Source: an uncultured Clostridia bacterium (GTDB lineage Bacteria; Bacillota; Clostridia; Christensenellales; UBA1242). From it: 64,000 nucleotides of DNA. The stretch is taken from assembly GCA_947627545.1 (NCBI GenBank), contig CANQWK010000004.1, positions 20,818-84,817 on the forward strand, given 5' to 3'. The notes under the pieces were generated by a model. The model was not told the DNA's origin. It was given only the letters and a program-made list of their open reading frames with translations, and made no database searches. Below are positions 3,063-35,935 of this stretch, one piece after another (within the stretch, counting starts at the first letter, position 1; each line of letters starts with the position of its first letter). The position numbers and the translations under genes were made by a program.

Positions 3063-3084
3063 AATATTTAATTGCATTGAAAAG

Positions 3085-3115
3085 ATAAGTAAACAAATAT
3101 ATTACTTATTTTTTT
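3085..3115 (+). terminator. rho-independent terminator after rpsU
   Basis: ATAAGTAA-N9-TTACTTAT followed by T run. Confidence 0.8.
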
Positions 3116-3200
3116 ATTGACTTATTTAAAATTAATAACTAAATTTTATAATTTTTTAAGCAATAAAAAATTGATAAAAACAAAACTTTTCTTTTTTTAT

Positions 3201-3238
3201 TTGCTTGTAAAAGGAATTTTTGGTATAATAAATTTATG
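3201..3238 (+). promoter_or_regulatory. pcrA promoter predicting leaderless mRNA
   Basis: TTGCTT-N17-TATAAT (TGG-extended) -N6-ATG; no SD. Confidence 0.65.
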
Positions 3239-5539
3239 GATTATAAGGCACAATTAAATGAAGAACAATATCAGGCAATGTTATGCTCGCAAGGTCCAGT
3301 GCTTGTAAGTGCAGGTGCAGGCAGCGGCAAAACACGCCTTTTAACATATAGAATTGCTTATTTAATAACCGATTGCGGTGTTCCTGCCAACAAAATTTTG
3401 GCAATTACTTTCACAAACAAAGCCGCAAATGAAATGAAAGAGCGTATTCAAAAAATTGTTCCAGACGGTCAACTTGTTACAGTTTGCACCTTTCATAGTT
3501 TTTGTGCCAGAATGCTTCGCACTTATGCTAGTTTTATACCAGGCTACAAAGATAATTTTTCAATTTTTAGCGATGCAGATACCGCCAAAATTCAAAAAGA
3601 TTTATTCAAACAAATGAACATTCAAGACGAAAACACAAAATCTAATTTTAAACATAACATTTCTACAATTAAAAATGACAATATGTCTATTGAAGAATTT
3701 GTTAATATTTATAAATATGAAAGTTCTATTTTAGATTTTGAAAAATTTTATAAATCTTATCAGGCAGAATTAATTAAAAATAATGCAATGGATTTTGACG
3801 ATTTACTTGTAAATTTTTACAATTTAATAAAAACAAACAGCGAAGTTTTGGCAAGCATTCAAAATAAATACACATATTTTAGTGTAGATGAATTTCAAGA
3901 TACAAACAAACTTCAATATGACATTATAAAAATTTTAGCAAGCAAAACTCGCAACATTTTAATTGTAGGAGATGAGGACCAATCAATTTATGGCTGGCGT
4001 GGGGCTAACATTGACAACATCTTTAATTTTACAAAAGATTTTAAAGAGGCAAAAGTTTTTAAATTAGAGCAGAATTATAGAAGCACTAAAAAAATATTAG
4101 AGCGCGCAAACCTTATTATAAAAAACAACAAAAACAGGCTAGACAAAAAGTTATATACTCAGAACGATGAAGGAGCAGATGTATATTATTATCCAGCGCA
4201 AAATGAAAGTGAAGAAGCCGATTTTGTTGTTCATTCAATTATTCAAAAGCATAATCAAGGCGTTGAATATAACGACATTGCAATTCTAATGCGATTAAAC
4301 TCGCTTTCTCGTGCGTTTGAAGAAAAACTTTTAACATATAACATTCCGCATATAATGTATAATGGCTTTAAATTTTTTGAGCGTGCCGAAATAAAAAGCG
4401 TGCTTGCATATTTAACAGCAATTGTAAATCCAAGTGATGATGTTAGTTTTGTTAGAATAATCAATTTTCCAAAACGCGGTATTGGCGAAACAAGCATAGA
4501 TAAATTAACCGAAATTGCAACTTTAACTAAACGCTCAATAAAAGATGTGGTTATGAATTGCGAATATGAAGTTTTGCCAAAAGGCCTTAAAGATAAACTT
4601 AAACCTTTTAAGGAGTTATTGCAAGATTTAGGCGAGCAAATTAACAAACTTGGTCTTTATGAATTTTTTGTTTATCTTGTTAAAGAAAGTAAAATTTTAG
4701 AATCTTTTGATAAAGAAAACGAGCAAGAATATGAACGTCTTTTAAACATAAACTCACTTATAAATTCGGTTAGAGAATTTGAAGAAAATAACCCAGAAGC
4801 AACAATTGTAGATTATTTAGAGAGTGTAACTTTATCTTCAGCCATGGATAGTGATGATGGCAAAGGTGTAGTTATAGCAACGGTGCATAGTGCAAAAGGT
4901 CTAGAATTTAACACTGTTTACGTTGTAGGTTGCGAAGAAAAAATTTTTCCAATTTCACGAGATAATAATGATGACCTTGAAGAAGAACGCCGCTTAATGT
5001 ATGTTGCAGTAACAAGGGCGGAAAAGGAACTTGTTTTAACATCAAGCGAAAGCCGTTTCTTATATGGCAAGCGTGAGTATAGTCCAAAATCAAGATTTTT
5101 GTATGAATTAGATTTGGCAAAAGAACGAAAAATAAAACCAGCACAATTTTCATATAATAATTATAATTCTTACGAAAATTATTATGAAAATAAAAATTCT
5201 TATCAAAGTTCAAACTACGGCAACTCTTTCAATTCAAATTCTTACAATAAATTAAACACATACAATAATTTTAGTTATAAAGGAGATAATATGAACACAA
5301 TTGGTTCAAACAACCAACAATCTTTTAATTATACTTTTAAAAAGGAAACTGTTGAGAAGAAATCGGTAGATTTTTCAAAAATTAAGTTAGGTGCAAAAGT
5401 TACACACCCCAAATTTGGCGATGGCGAAATTGTTGAAATTTCAAATGGTTCAAGCAATCATACAGTTAAAATTAAATTTGCCACCGTTGGCGAAAAAATG
5501 TTGAGCCTAGATTACGCACCTATTGAATTTAAAGATTAA
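3236..5539 (+). CDS. pcrA: UvrD/PcrA-type ATP-dependent DNA helicase
   Basis: Walker A GAGSGKT, DEFQDTN, QNYRST, VHSAKGLEF, VAVTRAEKEL; N/Y/S-rich linker before C-terminal KVTHPKFGDGEI module. Confidence 0.96.
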   Translation: MDYKAQLNEEQYQAMLCSQGPVLVSAGAGSGKTRLLTYRIAYLITDCGVPANKILAITFTNKAANEMKERIQKIVPDGQLVTVCTFHSFCARMLRTYASFIPGYKDNFSIFSDADTAKIQKDLFKQMNIQDENTKSNFKHNISTIKNDNMSIEEFVNIYKYESSILDFEKFYKSYQAELIKNNAMDFDDLLVNFYNLIKTNSEVLASIQNKYTYFSVDEFQDTNKLQYDIIKILASKTRNILIVGDEDQSIYGWRGANIDNIFNFTKDFKEAKVFKLEQNYRSTKKILERANLIIKNNKNRLDKKLYTQNDEGADVYYYPAQNESEEADFVVHSIIQKHNQGVEYNDIAILMRLNSLSRAFEEKLLTYNIPHIMYNGFKFFERAEIKSVLAYLTAIVNPSDDVSFVRIINFPKRGIGETSIDKLTEIATLTKRSIKDVVMNCEYEVLPKGLKDKLKPFKELLQDLGEQINKLGLYEFFVYLVKESKILESFDKENEQEYERLLNINSLINSVREFEENNPEATIVDYLESVTLSSAMDSDDGKGVVIATVHSAKGLEFNTVYVVGCEEKIFPISRDNNDDLEEERRLMYVAVTRAEKELVLTSSESRFLYGKREYSPKSRFLYELDLAKERKIKPAQFSYNNYNSYENYYENKNSYQSSNYGNSFNSNSYNKLNTYNNFSYKGDNMNTIGSNNQQSFNYTFKKETVEKKSVDFSKIKLGAKVTHPKFGDGEIVEISNGSSNHTVKIKFATVGEKMLSLDYAPIEFKD

Positions 5540-12357: not shown

Positions 12358-12675
12358 ATGAATATTGATGATAGAATAAAAATTGCAGTTTTAACAAAAT
12401 ATTATGGAAATTTGTTAACAGAAAAACAAAAAATGGTTATATCTATGTATGTAGATAATAATCTTTCGCTTGCCGAAACCGGCAAAGAAATGGAAATAAG
12501 CCGCCAAGCGGTTAAGGATTCACTAGATAAAGCGGTGCAAACTTTGCAAGAATATGAAAATAACTTGCATTTTATTGCACGAGATGATAAAATAAAGAAA
12601 TTGCTTGAACAAAAGCCGTTGGCAGAAATATCTTTGTCAACAAAATTGCAAATAATATCTTTATTGGAGGAATAA
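12358..12675 (+). CDS. ylxM: YlxM-type SRP-associated HTH protein
   Basis: LTEKQKMVISMYVDNNLSLAETGKEMEISRQAVKDSL; located between ftsY and ffh. Confidence 0.92.
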   Translation: MNIDDRIKIAVLTKYYGNLLTEKQKMVISMYVDNNLSLAETGKEMEISRQAVKDSLDKAVQTLQEYENNLHFIARDDKIKKLLEQKPLAEISLSTKLQIISLLEE

Positions 12676-32162: not shown

Positions 32163-32348
32163 ATGAAAGAGTTATTAATTGGCATGGGCATTGGTTTTGT
32201 TGTTGGAGCAATAACTTGCAAAACAAACAAACCTTTGGCAGACACAGTAGAAAAGGGTGTAGAAAAAGGCAAAGAAATTATAGAAGATATCAAAGACGAA
32301 ATTGAAACCCAAGCTAAAAAAAGCAAAAAACAAACCAAAAATAATTAA
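32163..32348 (+). CDS. small YtxH-like membrane-anchored protein (start revised to 32163)
   Basis: RBS ggaggg before ATG; N-terminal TM MKELLIGMGIGFVVGAITC then charged helix. Confidence 0.75.
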   Translation: MKELLIGMGIGFVVGAITCKTNKPLADTVEKGVEKGKEIIEDIKDEIETQAKKSKKQTKNN

Positions 32349-32374
32349 AACGCAGCAAAACTGCGTTTTTTCTT
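32347..32374 (+). terminator. terminator
   Basis: AAAACGCAG-CAAAA-CTGCGTTTTTTC. Confidence 0.85.
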
Positions 32375-32503
32375 TAATTGATTATATAATAAAAAAATTT
32401 CAAAAAATTATTAAAAAATGTTTGACAAATCTCAAAAAAAATGAAATTTTGATATTGACTATTTTAACTTCTTATGGTAAAATACAAACGAACTGAGGTA
32501 AAT

Positions 32504-33277
32504 ATGGGGATAAAAAAACAATATACAGAAACTATTATTAAAAAAATGTACAAGTTTTCTTCCAAATTAGAGGATAAAGACATTTTAAAGCAATATGAAC
32601 AAATTATAGAAAGATGTTTTCCAAACATTAGCAATGTTTCAATGGCGGATTTTGAAACAATTTCGCAAGAAATAAAAACTCAATTAGCAAAAAATGAGCA
32701 GGCAACATCGGTAAACAAGTTGATTAACAAAACTAAAACATATTTAAAAAAATTTGCAAAATTTTATATTAATAATGGTTTAGATATATCCAATTTTGAA
32801 GATGAATTAGATGCGTTGCAATGTGAATTTGTTATAGGCTTAAACAACATAGTTAGCAGAAAAACATGGTTTGCTAATTATAATAGTTTTACTGTAAGAA
32901 TGAACGATATTGTAGATGACTTTATTGTACATCTTTGCATTAATTTAGAAAAAGAAAAAGCAATTGAATTTAAACAATTAGATGGTAAAACAATTAATCT
33001 AATAGGCAATAGGCTATATCAAAAAACTATAAAAGACATCAAAACAGAAGAATTGAGGGCGGAATTACACAAAGTTTTTAACAGTCTTGGTAACCGCGAT
33101 GCAAGCATATTATCTAATTATTTTTTAAGAGAAAGCAAAAATATAAATTGTGTTCAAATTGCAAAAGAACATAATTTGTCGTATCAACGTGTTTCTCAAA
33201 TTATTAATGAATCAATAGAAATTATAAGAGAAACAACAAATCCAATTTTAAAAGAATACTATACAAACTCTGATTAA
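32504..33277 (+). CDS. divergent sigma-70-like protein (degenerate region 2, region-4-like HTH)
   Basis: C-terminal CVQIAKEHNLSYQRVSQIINESIEIIRE resembles sigma region 4; RBS gaggt before ATG 32504. Confidence 0.6.
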   Translation: MGIKKQYTETIIKKMYKFSSKLEDKDILKQYEQIIERCFPNISNVSMADFETISQEIKTQLAKNEQATSVNKLINKTKTYLKKFAKFYINNGLDISNFEDELDALQCEFVIGLNNIVSRKTWFANYNSFTVRMNDIVDDFIVHLCINLEKEKAIEFKQLDGKTINLIGNRLYQKTIKDIKTEELRAELHKVFNSLGNRDASILSNYFLRESKNINCVQIAKEHNLSYQRVSQIINESIEIIRETTNPILKEYYTNSD

Positions 33278-33336
33278 TTTACATCTATTAATTTAAAAAA
33301 AATAATAATTAAATTTTGGTTAATAAAGGATGACTT

Positions 33337-33909
33337 ATGAAAAAATCATTAGAATATTATATTAATTTAATAAAAACATCTTACCCTGAAATTGTAGATA
33401 ATGACAAACGCAAAAGTGAATATAAAACCGCTATTAATTTGGCAGAATTTTATGTAAAGTATCATCTAAACCCTGAAACATTTATTGATAATTTAACAGA
33501 TATGTTTTTAAAAACTTCTACTTTTAAATATAAGCATTCGTTGCGTGAAAAAAGTTTTTTACATGCTATAATAAACAAAAAGCAAAAAGAACAGAATAAA
33601 GATAAATTTATTTGCCAATCAGTTGTAAATGATATTTATTCTCAATCTATTTATGAAAAAGAACTTGAGGAAATGGAAATTGCTGAATTAAAATCTCATT
33701 TTGATGAAATTTTTAAAATTTTAACTCCAATAGAACAATCTGTTTTAATTGATTATTATAATTTAAATTACGAGGGTAGAAAAACACAAGAACAAATAGC
33801 AAAAAAATACAATATATCGGATTGGCGAGTAAGTCAAATTATTCATAAAGCATTGTTAAAATTAAGGCATCCAAAATGTTCAAGAAAAATTCATGATTTT
33901 TTATGGTAA
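33337..33909 (+). CDS. sigma-70 region-4-containing protein, RpoD-like C-terminus
   Basis: ILTPIEQSVLIDYY...TQEQIAKKYNISDWRVSQIIHKALLKLRHPKCSRKIHDFLW. Confidence 0.75.
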   Translation: MKKSLEYYINLIKTSYPEIVDNDKRKSEYKTAINLAEFYVKYHLNPETFIDNLTDMFLKTSTFKYKHSLREKSFLHAIINKKQKEQNKDKFICQSVVNDIYSQSIYEKELEEMEIAELKSHFDEIFKILTPIEQSVLIDYYNLNYEGRKTQEQIAKKYNISDWRVSQIIHKALLKLRHPKCSRKIHDFLW

Positions 33910-33914
33910 TTTGT

Positions 33915-33953
33915 TTGCTTAATAAATAAAAGTGAGTTATTATATTAACAATG
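33915..33953 (+). promoter_or_regulatory. ruvX promoter predicting leaderless mRNA
   Basis: TTGCTT-N17-TATTAT-N7-ATG; no SD at usual spacing. Confidence 0.5.
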
Positions 33954-34364
33954 AAAGCAATGGGCATAGATTTTGGTTTAAAACGTATAGGCGTTGCGTT
34001 TAGTGATGAAACTAAATTTTTAGCAACGCCTTTTGCTGTTTATCATAGAAAAGACTTGCAAAGCGATTTGCTTTATTTAAAAAATTTAACCGAAACAAAT
34101 AAAGTAGATGAAATAGTGTGTGGGCTGCCGCTAAATCCAAAAGGAGAAGAAGGTCCAATTGCTCAAGAAACTCGAGCTTTTATGCAAGAATTAACTAAAT
34201 TAACCAAAATAGAGCCAATTTTTGTTGATGAACGCTTATCAAGTTCCTTAGCAGAACAATTTTTAGCAGAACGTGAAAAAGATTGGCGTAAAAGAAAGGA
34301 AAAATTAGATAGCGTTGCCGCTTCAATAATTTTGCAAGACTATTTAGATGGCAGAAAAAATTAA
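33951..34364 (+). CDS. ruvX: Holliday junction resolvase-like RuvX/YqgF
   Basis: MGIDFGLKRIGVAFSD, GLPLNPKGEEG, FVDERLSS, DSVAASIILQDYLD. Confidence 0.96.
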   Translation: MKAMGIDFGLKRIGVAFSDETKFLATPFAVYHRKDLQSDLLYLKNLTETNKVDEIVCGLPLNPKGEEGPIAQETRAFMQELTKLTKIEPIFVDERLSSSLAEQFLAEREKDWRKRKEKLDSVAASIILQDYLDGRKN

Positions 34365-34430: not shown

Positions 34431-34808
34431 ATGAAAGATTTAAGGGAAGAAATTAAACAAAAAAAAGTTGCTCGAAAACAAAACTCAAATTACGATGCAA
34501 TATCGCAAATTTTAGACGAACATAACAGCGATAATGTAACATTATATGACGCACAAAACAAGCCAATTGAATTTGAACAAATTGCATTAATTCCTCGCAG
34601 AAATAAATTAACAAGGTTAGATGAATTGTTTACAATTATGATACCTATAACTCCTATGCAAGGCGTTAATGAAGGGGAAGGCGTTGTGTTTAAAATAGAC
34701 GAAAAAAGCCGAGATATAGAAGTTGTTAATGACCAAGAAATTATAGATGATATTTTAGATATTTATCAAAAACTTATAGAAAACGGCGAGGGCGAAAACG
34801 AAGAATAA
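34431..34808 (+). CDS. DUF1292-family (YrzB-like) protein
   Basis: Acidic small protein NVTLYDAQNKPIEFEQIALIP...VVFKIDEKSRDIEVVND downstream of ruvX. Confidence 0.75.
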   Translation: MKDLREEIKQKKVARKQNSNYDAISQILDEHNSDNVTLYDAQNKPIEFEQIALIPRRNKLTRLDELFTIMIPITPMQGVNEGEGVVFKIDEKSRDIEVVNDQEIIDDILDIYQKLIENGEGENEE

Positions 34809-34927: not shown

Positions 34928-35935
34928 ATGATTACATCATTTGCCAGCATTGAAAAAATATATACAAAATATGGTTTTAACAGCAAACAATTTTCCAAAA
35001 TAATTAAAAAAAGTTATTTACCAAATGTTGTGCAGTTTTTATTGTCTTTAAACTTAACAGATAAACCAGAAATAGTTGAATATTTGCAAACAATAAAGCA
35101 GCCAATTTTAATTTTAACTCTTAACAACTTAGAAAATTTACCTATTCAAACTCAAAAAACAATATATTTAAATTTAATAAATATAAATTCAAATTTAACC
35201 GAATACATTTTCAAAAAAATATATGATGGAAGAGGAATTAATCATTGTGATTTAAGAAAAAATAGTGTAGTTTTTTCATTTAAAGAATTAAGCAATTTTA
35301 ATTTATCTCAACTGAACACAACAGATATGGCTTTTTTGCTTGTAGATTTAGTAATGGACAAAAGAGAAATTGAAGAATTACCTGTTCAAAACATTGAAAA
35401 AACTTATTCTTTTAAATATTTAAAATTAGTTATAAATAAAATAAAACCTATGGTTAATTTTTCAGTTTTAGAATTAGTTTGTTCAATAATTAACAACTCG
35501 CAATTAAGCAATAGTTACTTTGTAATAGTCCTAAATTTATTAGGTTATAGTAAACAAGAAATTAAAACTATGTATATTCAGGCATATAACAATAAATCTT
35601 ATATTCTTATGGAAATGTTAGTTGAATTTTATGATTATTTGCCAAAATCTTTATTTGCCGATTTTGTTATAAAATATAAAAAAGATAAAGCGTTTATAAC
35701 ATTTATGAGATTTTCACACTATTTAAGCGAAGATAAGAATAAAGAATTGCTAGCAATAATAAAAAACAATCATAAACATAGTCAAATTAGTCAAATAAAA
35801 GAGATTATAACAAAAAATAATCTTTTTGATAAAGAAACAACTTTAAAAATTTTTGAAGATTTTAATATTCATCAATTTGATGATGCGAAAATAACTAAAA
35901 CTAAGCCAATTAAAACATTAAAAAAAACCAACTAA
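34928..35935 (+). CDS. hypothetical protein (335 aa)
   Basis: ORF with RBS aaggag, promoter and terminator flanking. Confidence 0.7.
   Translation: MITSFASIEKIYTKYGFNSKQFSKIIKKSYLPNVVQFLLSLNLTDKPEIVEYLQTIKQPILILTLNNLENLPIQTQKTIYLNLININSNLTEYIFKKIYDGRGINHCDLRKNSVVFSFKELSNFNLSQLNTTDMAFLLVDLVMDKREIEELPVQNIEKTYSFKYLKLVINKIKPMVNFSVLELVCSIINNSQLSNSYFVIVLNLLGYSKQEIKTMYIQAYNNKSYILMEMLVEFYDYLPKSLFADFVIKYKKDKAFITFMRFSHYLSEDKNKELLAIIKNNHKHSQISQIKEIITKNNLFDKETTLKIFEDFNIHQFDDAKITKTKPIKTLKKTN

Follow-up and report, generated by a model that had tools for sequence, protein, structure and literature searches.

Compared to other regulators, sigma factors are normally rather well conserved. Members of group IV (ECF) are defined by having regions 2 and 4 only, with a linker of under 50 residues (PMC8103513). 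In SigO-RsoA, region 4 belongs to one protein and region 2 to another, and the two have to work together (PMC8103513, PMC10028694); the group V factors of Clostridia (TcdR/BotR type) have two recognizable, very diverged sigma domains (PMC8103513).

Here, we analyzed a window of 64,000 nucleotides, the whole stretch of DNA under study, from a genome of 1.10 Mb in 20 contigs whose near relatives are metagenome bins, one of them from sheep rectum. The window carries two adjacent genes, SIG1 and SIG2, that a first-pass annotation had described as diverged and sigma-70-like. That observation is confirmed, and the peptides quoted for it are found letter for letter in the two proteins. Moreover, a generic helix-turn-helix (HTH) without likeness to sigma regions 2 and 4 does not describe them: SIG2 region 4 is over the profile cut-offs, a profile of the family's N-terminal halves picks out region 1.2-2.4, and the family stands beside canonical sigma factors in a tree. 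We give about an even chance to the reading that SIG1 and SIG2 are genus-restricted, fast-evolving, two-domain alternative sigma factors whose promoter specificity is particular to the lineage. Two domains, a retained region 4 core, an acidic residue at the region 2.2 position, and the lack of region 3 fit a group IV-like factor of this kind.

Like group IV factors, SIG1 and SIG2 have only regions 2 (by family profile) and 4 and a short linker (a helix gap of about 20-30 residues in weak AF2 models), an acidic motif at region 2.2, and an SF...LY-like region 2.3. They differ from that group in their RpoD-like region 4 with a C-terminal tail, their N-terminal YP-I segment, their restriction to one genus, their extreme divergence, and the lack of an adjacent anti-sigma gene, which is common but not obligatory in group IV. 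With RpoD/SigA (group I), SIG2 shares region 4 and an ALxKLRHP....hDF tail, whereas both proteins lack regions 1.1 and 3 and the -10 Trp dyad and have a degenerate region 2; region 3, which marks groups I and II (RpoD, RpoS), thus sets them apart from both groups. The likeness to SigO-RsoA is that of nonstandard sigma factors with domains unevenly kept in neighboring proteins, although the SigO-RsoA domains are fully split while both are represented in the alignments of SIG1 and of SIG2, in SIG2 with a shortened region 2. Group V resembles them by description, having two very diverged sigma domains in Clostridia; no such family is among the matches, and the SIG1-SIG2 neighborhood is housekeeping.

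The SIG1-SIG2 locus

SIG1 (32504-33277, plus strand; 257 aa) and SIG2 (33337-33909, plus strand; 190 aa) each run from ATG to stop. SIG1 joins a region 1.2/2-like N-terminal half to region 4, and SIG2 is shortened at region 1.2 and the start of region 2.1. An alternative SIG1 open reading frame from 32474 is longer, but its start is worse than the ATG at 32504. Both frames are supported by codon usage, scoring highest of six at 0.27 (SIG1) and 0.22 (SIG2) bits per codon.

The constant left neighbor of this slot is a 61-aa ytxH-like gene (32163-32348, plus strand), which comes after iscS-iscU, and the constant right neighbor is ruvX (yqgF; 33951-34364, plus strand), 41 nt downstream of SIG2. 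A terminator-like hairpin 3' of ytxH (32347-32369, plus strand) sets SIG1-SIG2 apart from the upstream unit. Before SIG1, a consensus scan picks out a possible housekeeping promoter, TTGACT-17-TAAAAT with an extended TG (32455-32483, plus strand), which is weak because consensus matches in the region are at chance level (19 versus 16.4). With ytxH and ruvX as neighbors, no anti-sigma gene adjoins SIG1-SIG2; ytxH itself was ruled out as an anti-sigma gene, since it is kept in genomes without the sigma-like gene.

Farther along, a 125-aa protein with no Pfam or NCBIfam match (34431-34808) adjoins ruvX throughout the genus, and a 335-aa protein of unknown family (34928-35935) lies past the ruvX unit and before rpsB; only in G010 was a relative of this protein seen, which is shorter and 32% identical. 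In G018, a 558-aa repeat protein is inserted between iscU and ytxH (L100:3066-4742, minus strand). Membership of SIG1 and SIG2 in YlxM/UPF0122 was rejected, with one weak UPF0122 match among 12 family members; the presumed YlxM of the window is a separate open reading frame at 12358-12675, beside a 448-aa frame that we take to be ffh.

Region 4 and the region 2-like halves

The RpoD-like region 4 and RpoD-type C-terminal tail of SIG2 (aa 115-189; 33679-33903, plus strand; recognition helix SDWRVSQII) emerge from profiles, AF2, and Foldseek. Pfam Sigma70_r4 matches at 48.9 bits (E 4.7e-13), above its cut-off of 24.1 bits, and NCBIfam sigma70-ECF (TIGR02937) matches at 44.4 bits, above its cut-off of 42.9. 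The alignment to TIGR02393 (RpoD_Cterm) reaches profile position 237 of 238, bearing out the RpoD-type C-terminus that the first-pass annotation had read in the second protein. Region 4 of SIG1 (about aa 177-256; 33032-33271, plus strand; recognition helix SYQRVSQII), seen by the same three approaches, stays under both cut-offs (18.3 bits with Sigma70_r4 and 32 bits with TIGR02937) and is backed by its relatives: TIGR02937 is matched at E <0.001 by 12 of the 12 family members in alignment A1, and Sigma70_r4 at E <0.01 by 11 of 12. The view of two adjacent genes with C-terminal region 4-like HTHs therefore stands, for SIG1 with the support of its relatives. So does their description as diverged paralogues, since direct comparison finds SIG1 and SIG2 homologous (E 1.1e-6), as copies of one family with long branches in the tree.

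AF2 models built from four sequences only are weak, with a mean pLDDT of 67.6 for SIG2 and 58.6 for SIG1; the region 4 core of SIG2 reaches 75-91. In Foldseek, region 4 of SIG2 fits domain 4 of Staphylococcus aureus sigmaA at 1.2 A (TM by target, 0.90), and that of SIG1 fits sigmaA domain 4 with a TM by target of 0.79. Sigma factors, either free or as part of an RNA polymerase complex, make up nearly all of the best 50 listed matches of both models, none of which has E <0.001.

Because the recognition-helix core RVSQII is common to both proteins, SIG1 and SIG2 probably read similar -35 sites. Across the family, both domains keep their structural residues, whereas the positions at which the region 4.2 helix contacts bases vary, and the recognition helix of most members no longer has the RpoD sequence. 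That the region 4 HTH is the sole domain detectable in most single sequences would suit a sigma-derived DNA-binding regulator that no longer contacts RNA polymerase, but we think such a regulator quite unlikely, since the conserved columns extend beyond the HTH to region 4.1 and core positions of region 2.

Before region 4, the first-pass annotation had traced by eye a stretch with the spacing of region 2 in the first protein and a comparable one in the second. This claim holds at the level of family profiles and fails at that of single sequences, where Pfam region 2 matches no family member, SIG1 and SIG2 included; one relative, that of G010, does match TIGR02937 over region 2 (E 0.003). A profile built from the N-terminal halves of family members aligns by hhalign to region 1.2-2.2 in the sigma factors of the host genome itself; it scores 36, whereas 40 shuffles of its columns reach at most 11.6 and reversed controls 13.2. 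Searched against the whole PDB, it finds RpoD as the top match over region 1.2-2.4 (E 0.016), with two further sigma factors in the first four and unrelated helical proteins close behind. The full family profile matches SigA/RpoD with E down to 7e-20, several alignments spanning region 2 to the C-terminus.

In SIG1, the region 1.2-2.4-like part covers about aa 45-158 (32636-32977, plus strand), as placed by hhalign of family N-termini, the PDB profile search, and AF2 helices (51-60, 64-90, 95-118, and 126-158 in a low-confidence model); its region 2.2 position is occupied by an acidic FED motif, and that of region 2.3 by NYNSF. The stretch in SIG2 is region 2-like by alignments A1 and A4 (about aa 23-90; 33403-33606, plus strand; AF2 helices 23-41, 46-58, and 73-85); it is shortened, without region 1.2 and the beginning of region 2.1, and has low model confidence. 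Region 3 has no match in either protein, and neither the lengths of the proteins nor the profile alignment allows for it, which gives SIG1 and SIG2 a group IV (ECF)-like architecture. Both lack the Trp-Trp dyad that sigma70 has in region 2.3, in keeping with the remark that the first protein lacks the usual -10-recognition aromatics, but this says little alone because ECF sigma factors are not known to have the dyad either.

In sigma70, Gln and Glu of region 2.2 contact beta-prime. At these positions, the SIG1/SIG2 family has Ser, Thr, Asp, or Asn and then a variable residue, and the region 2.2 position is acidic (D or E) in 13 of the 13 sequences having that column. As alternative sigma factors, the proteins would dock region 2.2, through its retained acidic motif, on the beta-prime clamp helices and region 4 on the beta flap; the region 4.2 helix would read a -35 element differing from species to species, and each species' protein would take RNA polymerase to a small lineage-specific promoter set. 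No shared target promoter was found, and the sigma-promoter scan is at chance level.

The altered core-contact residues of a degenerate region 2 also keep alive a decoy or antagonist role, as do the RpoD-like region 4 with its RpoD tail in SIG2 and the fast evolution described below. Such a protein would bind RNA polymerase or region-4-targeting proteins without starting transcription and would either modulate RpoD or sequester phage or host factors directed at its region 4. We hold this role to be rather unlikely, because region 2 is kept at family-profile level, which is needless for a pure region 4 decoy, and because the recognition helix has departed from the RpoD sequence in most members.

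Distribution, losses, and rate of change within the genus

Genus-wide distribution, two slots, repeated losses, and fast protein evolution add to what the first-pass annotation had observed. Its proposed check of co-occurrence in related genomes found the family in 13 genomes of the genus, at a ruvX or a der-plsY slot. In our sample of 34 genomes, ruvX was found in 31, and 10 of these carry one or two family members directly before it (the window, G013, G048, G010, G008, G045, G002, G020, G041, and G017, the last assigned to this slot through a contig end beside iscU). In 15 other genomes, the ruvX slot contains either no gene or other genes, and the contig ends before it in three. In G012, G018, and G019, the family member lies between der and plsY instead; as the species tree groups these three in one clade (support, 97/89), one move explains the second slot. 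The family has been lost repeatedly within the genus and is therefore dispensable: the ruvX-slot label requires 7 changes on the species tree, at least 4 of them forced by well-supported branches.

Outside the genus, 139 genomes from 41 further genera of the GTDB family yielded no full-length family member, and at 29 loci from the GTDB family and order, ruvX has none next to it. The SIG1/SIG2 family is thus restricted to one genus; the G019 member scores only 1.8e-8 against the family profile, so more distant copies could hide among canonical sigma matches.

Most members are 20-25% identical pairwise, the level of shuffled sequences in global alignment, and homology therefore rests on profiles, synteny, and the tree, where the family forms one long-branched group apart from RpoD and the same genome's sporulation sigma factors (support, 99/98). 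Between G020 and G045, the family member is 41% identical and its neighbors 86-97%; between G013 and G010, the values are 35% and 71-98%. The dN of the family member is 0.54-0.72, compared to 0.01-0.29 for the neighbors, with synonymous sites near saturation in both. The family member thus evolves at roughly two to forty times the pace of the neighbors compared; with dN below a saturated dS, it looks constrained, although much less than they are. High dN and repeated losses are what remnants of a sigma gene that decays under relaxed selection would give, but this is extremely unlikely in our view, since open frames at two slots are kept in 13 genomes, SIG1 and SIG2 have a coding signal, and dN is below dS in the compared pairs.

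Very fast evolution and repeated loss also fit a role in conflict, and to that extent favor the decoy or antagonist. A specific form of it is a rapidly evolving decoy, with an RpoD-like region 4 and a crippled region 2, that baits or competes for proteins by which phages or mobile elements take hold of RpoD region 4; if true, which we consider very unlikely, such an arms race would explain why, in a gut genus with small genomes, the family changes so fast and has been lost repeatedly. More broadly, a two-domain sigma-like gene that stays at a fixed slot in a genus, changes faster than all neighbors compared, and is repeatedly lost would offer a natural experiment on the evolution of promoter specificity or sigma antagonism, or else evidence of conflict centered on RNA polymerase. 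Nothing matching was found in the literature on fast-evolving sigma factors.

Links examined and other sigma-like genes in the genus

A phage origin was rejected: the phage matches of SIG2 span region 4 only and come from unannotated fecal records, probably RpoD fragments; SIG1 has no match to phage sequences, and PHROGs matches, also set aside, are to general sigma families. A defense link through MzaA matches (PADLOC, NCBIfam) was discarded too, as these were taken to be to region 4 only, like the NCBIfam match of SIG2. ComEC occurs in 32 of 34 genomes whether the family is present or not, making a competence link uninformative.

The uneven quality of the domains keeps alive a co-sigma role, with SIG1 and SIG2 as a pair of the SigO-RsoA type, itself such a split pair (PMC8103513, PMC10028694). 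SIG1, whose region 2-like part is complete, would then supply the better region 2, and SIG2, with a shortened region 2 and a far stronger region 4, the better region 4; G045 also has two tandem copies, as in the window. Alternatively, either protein could act with a region-2-only protein encoded near rpoD. In the window's genome, this protein of about 171 aa (contig C12, L001:2535-3050, minus strand) matches Sigma70_r2 at 2.7e-9 and has no region 4. It is present in 33 of 34 genomes of the genus, abutting or overlapping rpoD immediately upstream wherever the flank was read, and occurs in this and one other of the 42 genera of the GTDB family. We judge a co-sigma arrangement unlikely all the same, because most carrier genomes have just one copy, which has both domains, and because the region-2-only protein is also present where the SIG1/SIG2 family is missing. 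In its own right, the region-2-only protein is possibly an RsoA-like co-sigma factor or a modulator of RpoD.

Two further sets of sigma-like sequences were seen in the genus. In G003, contig C50 has several region 4-like HTH matches (about 1600-2170 and 3074-3271), two of them within one 470-aa frame. Contig C11 of the window's genome carries tandem SigK-like sporulation sigma genes of 233 and 239 aa (L008:991-2698), and similar tandem pairs are found in several genomes of the genus.
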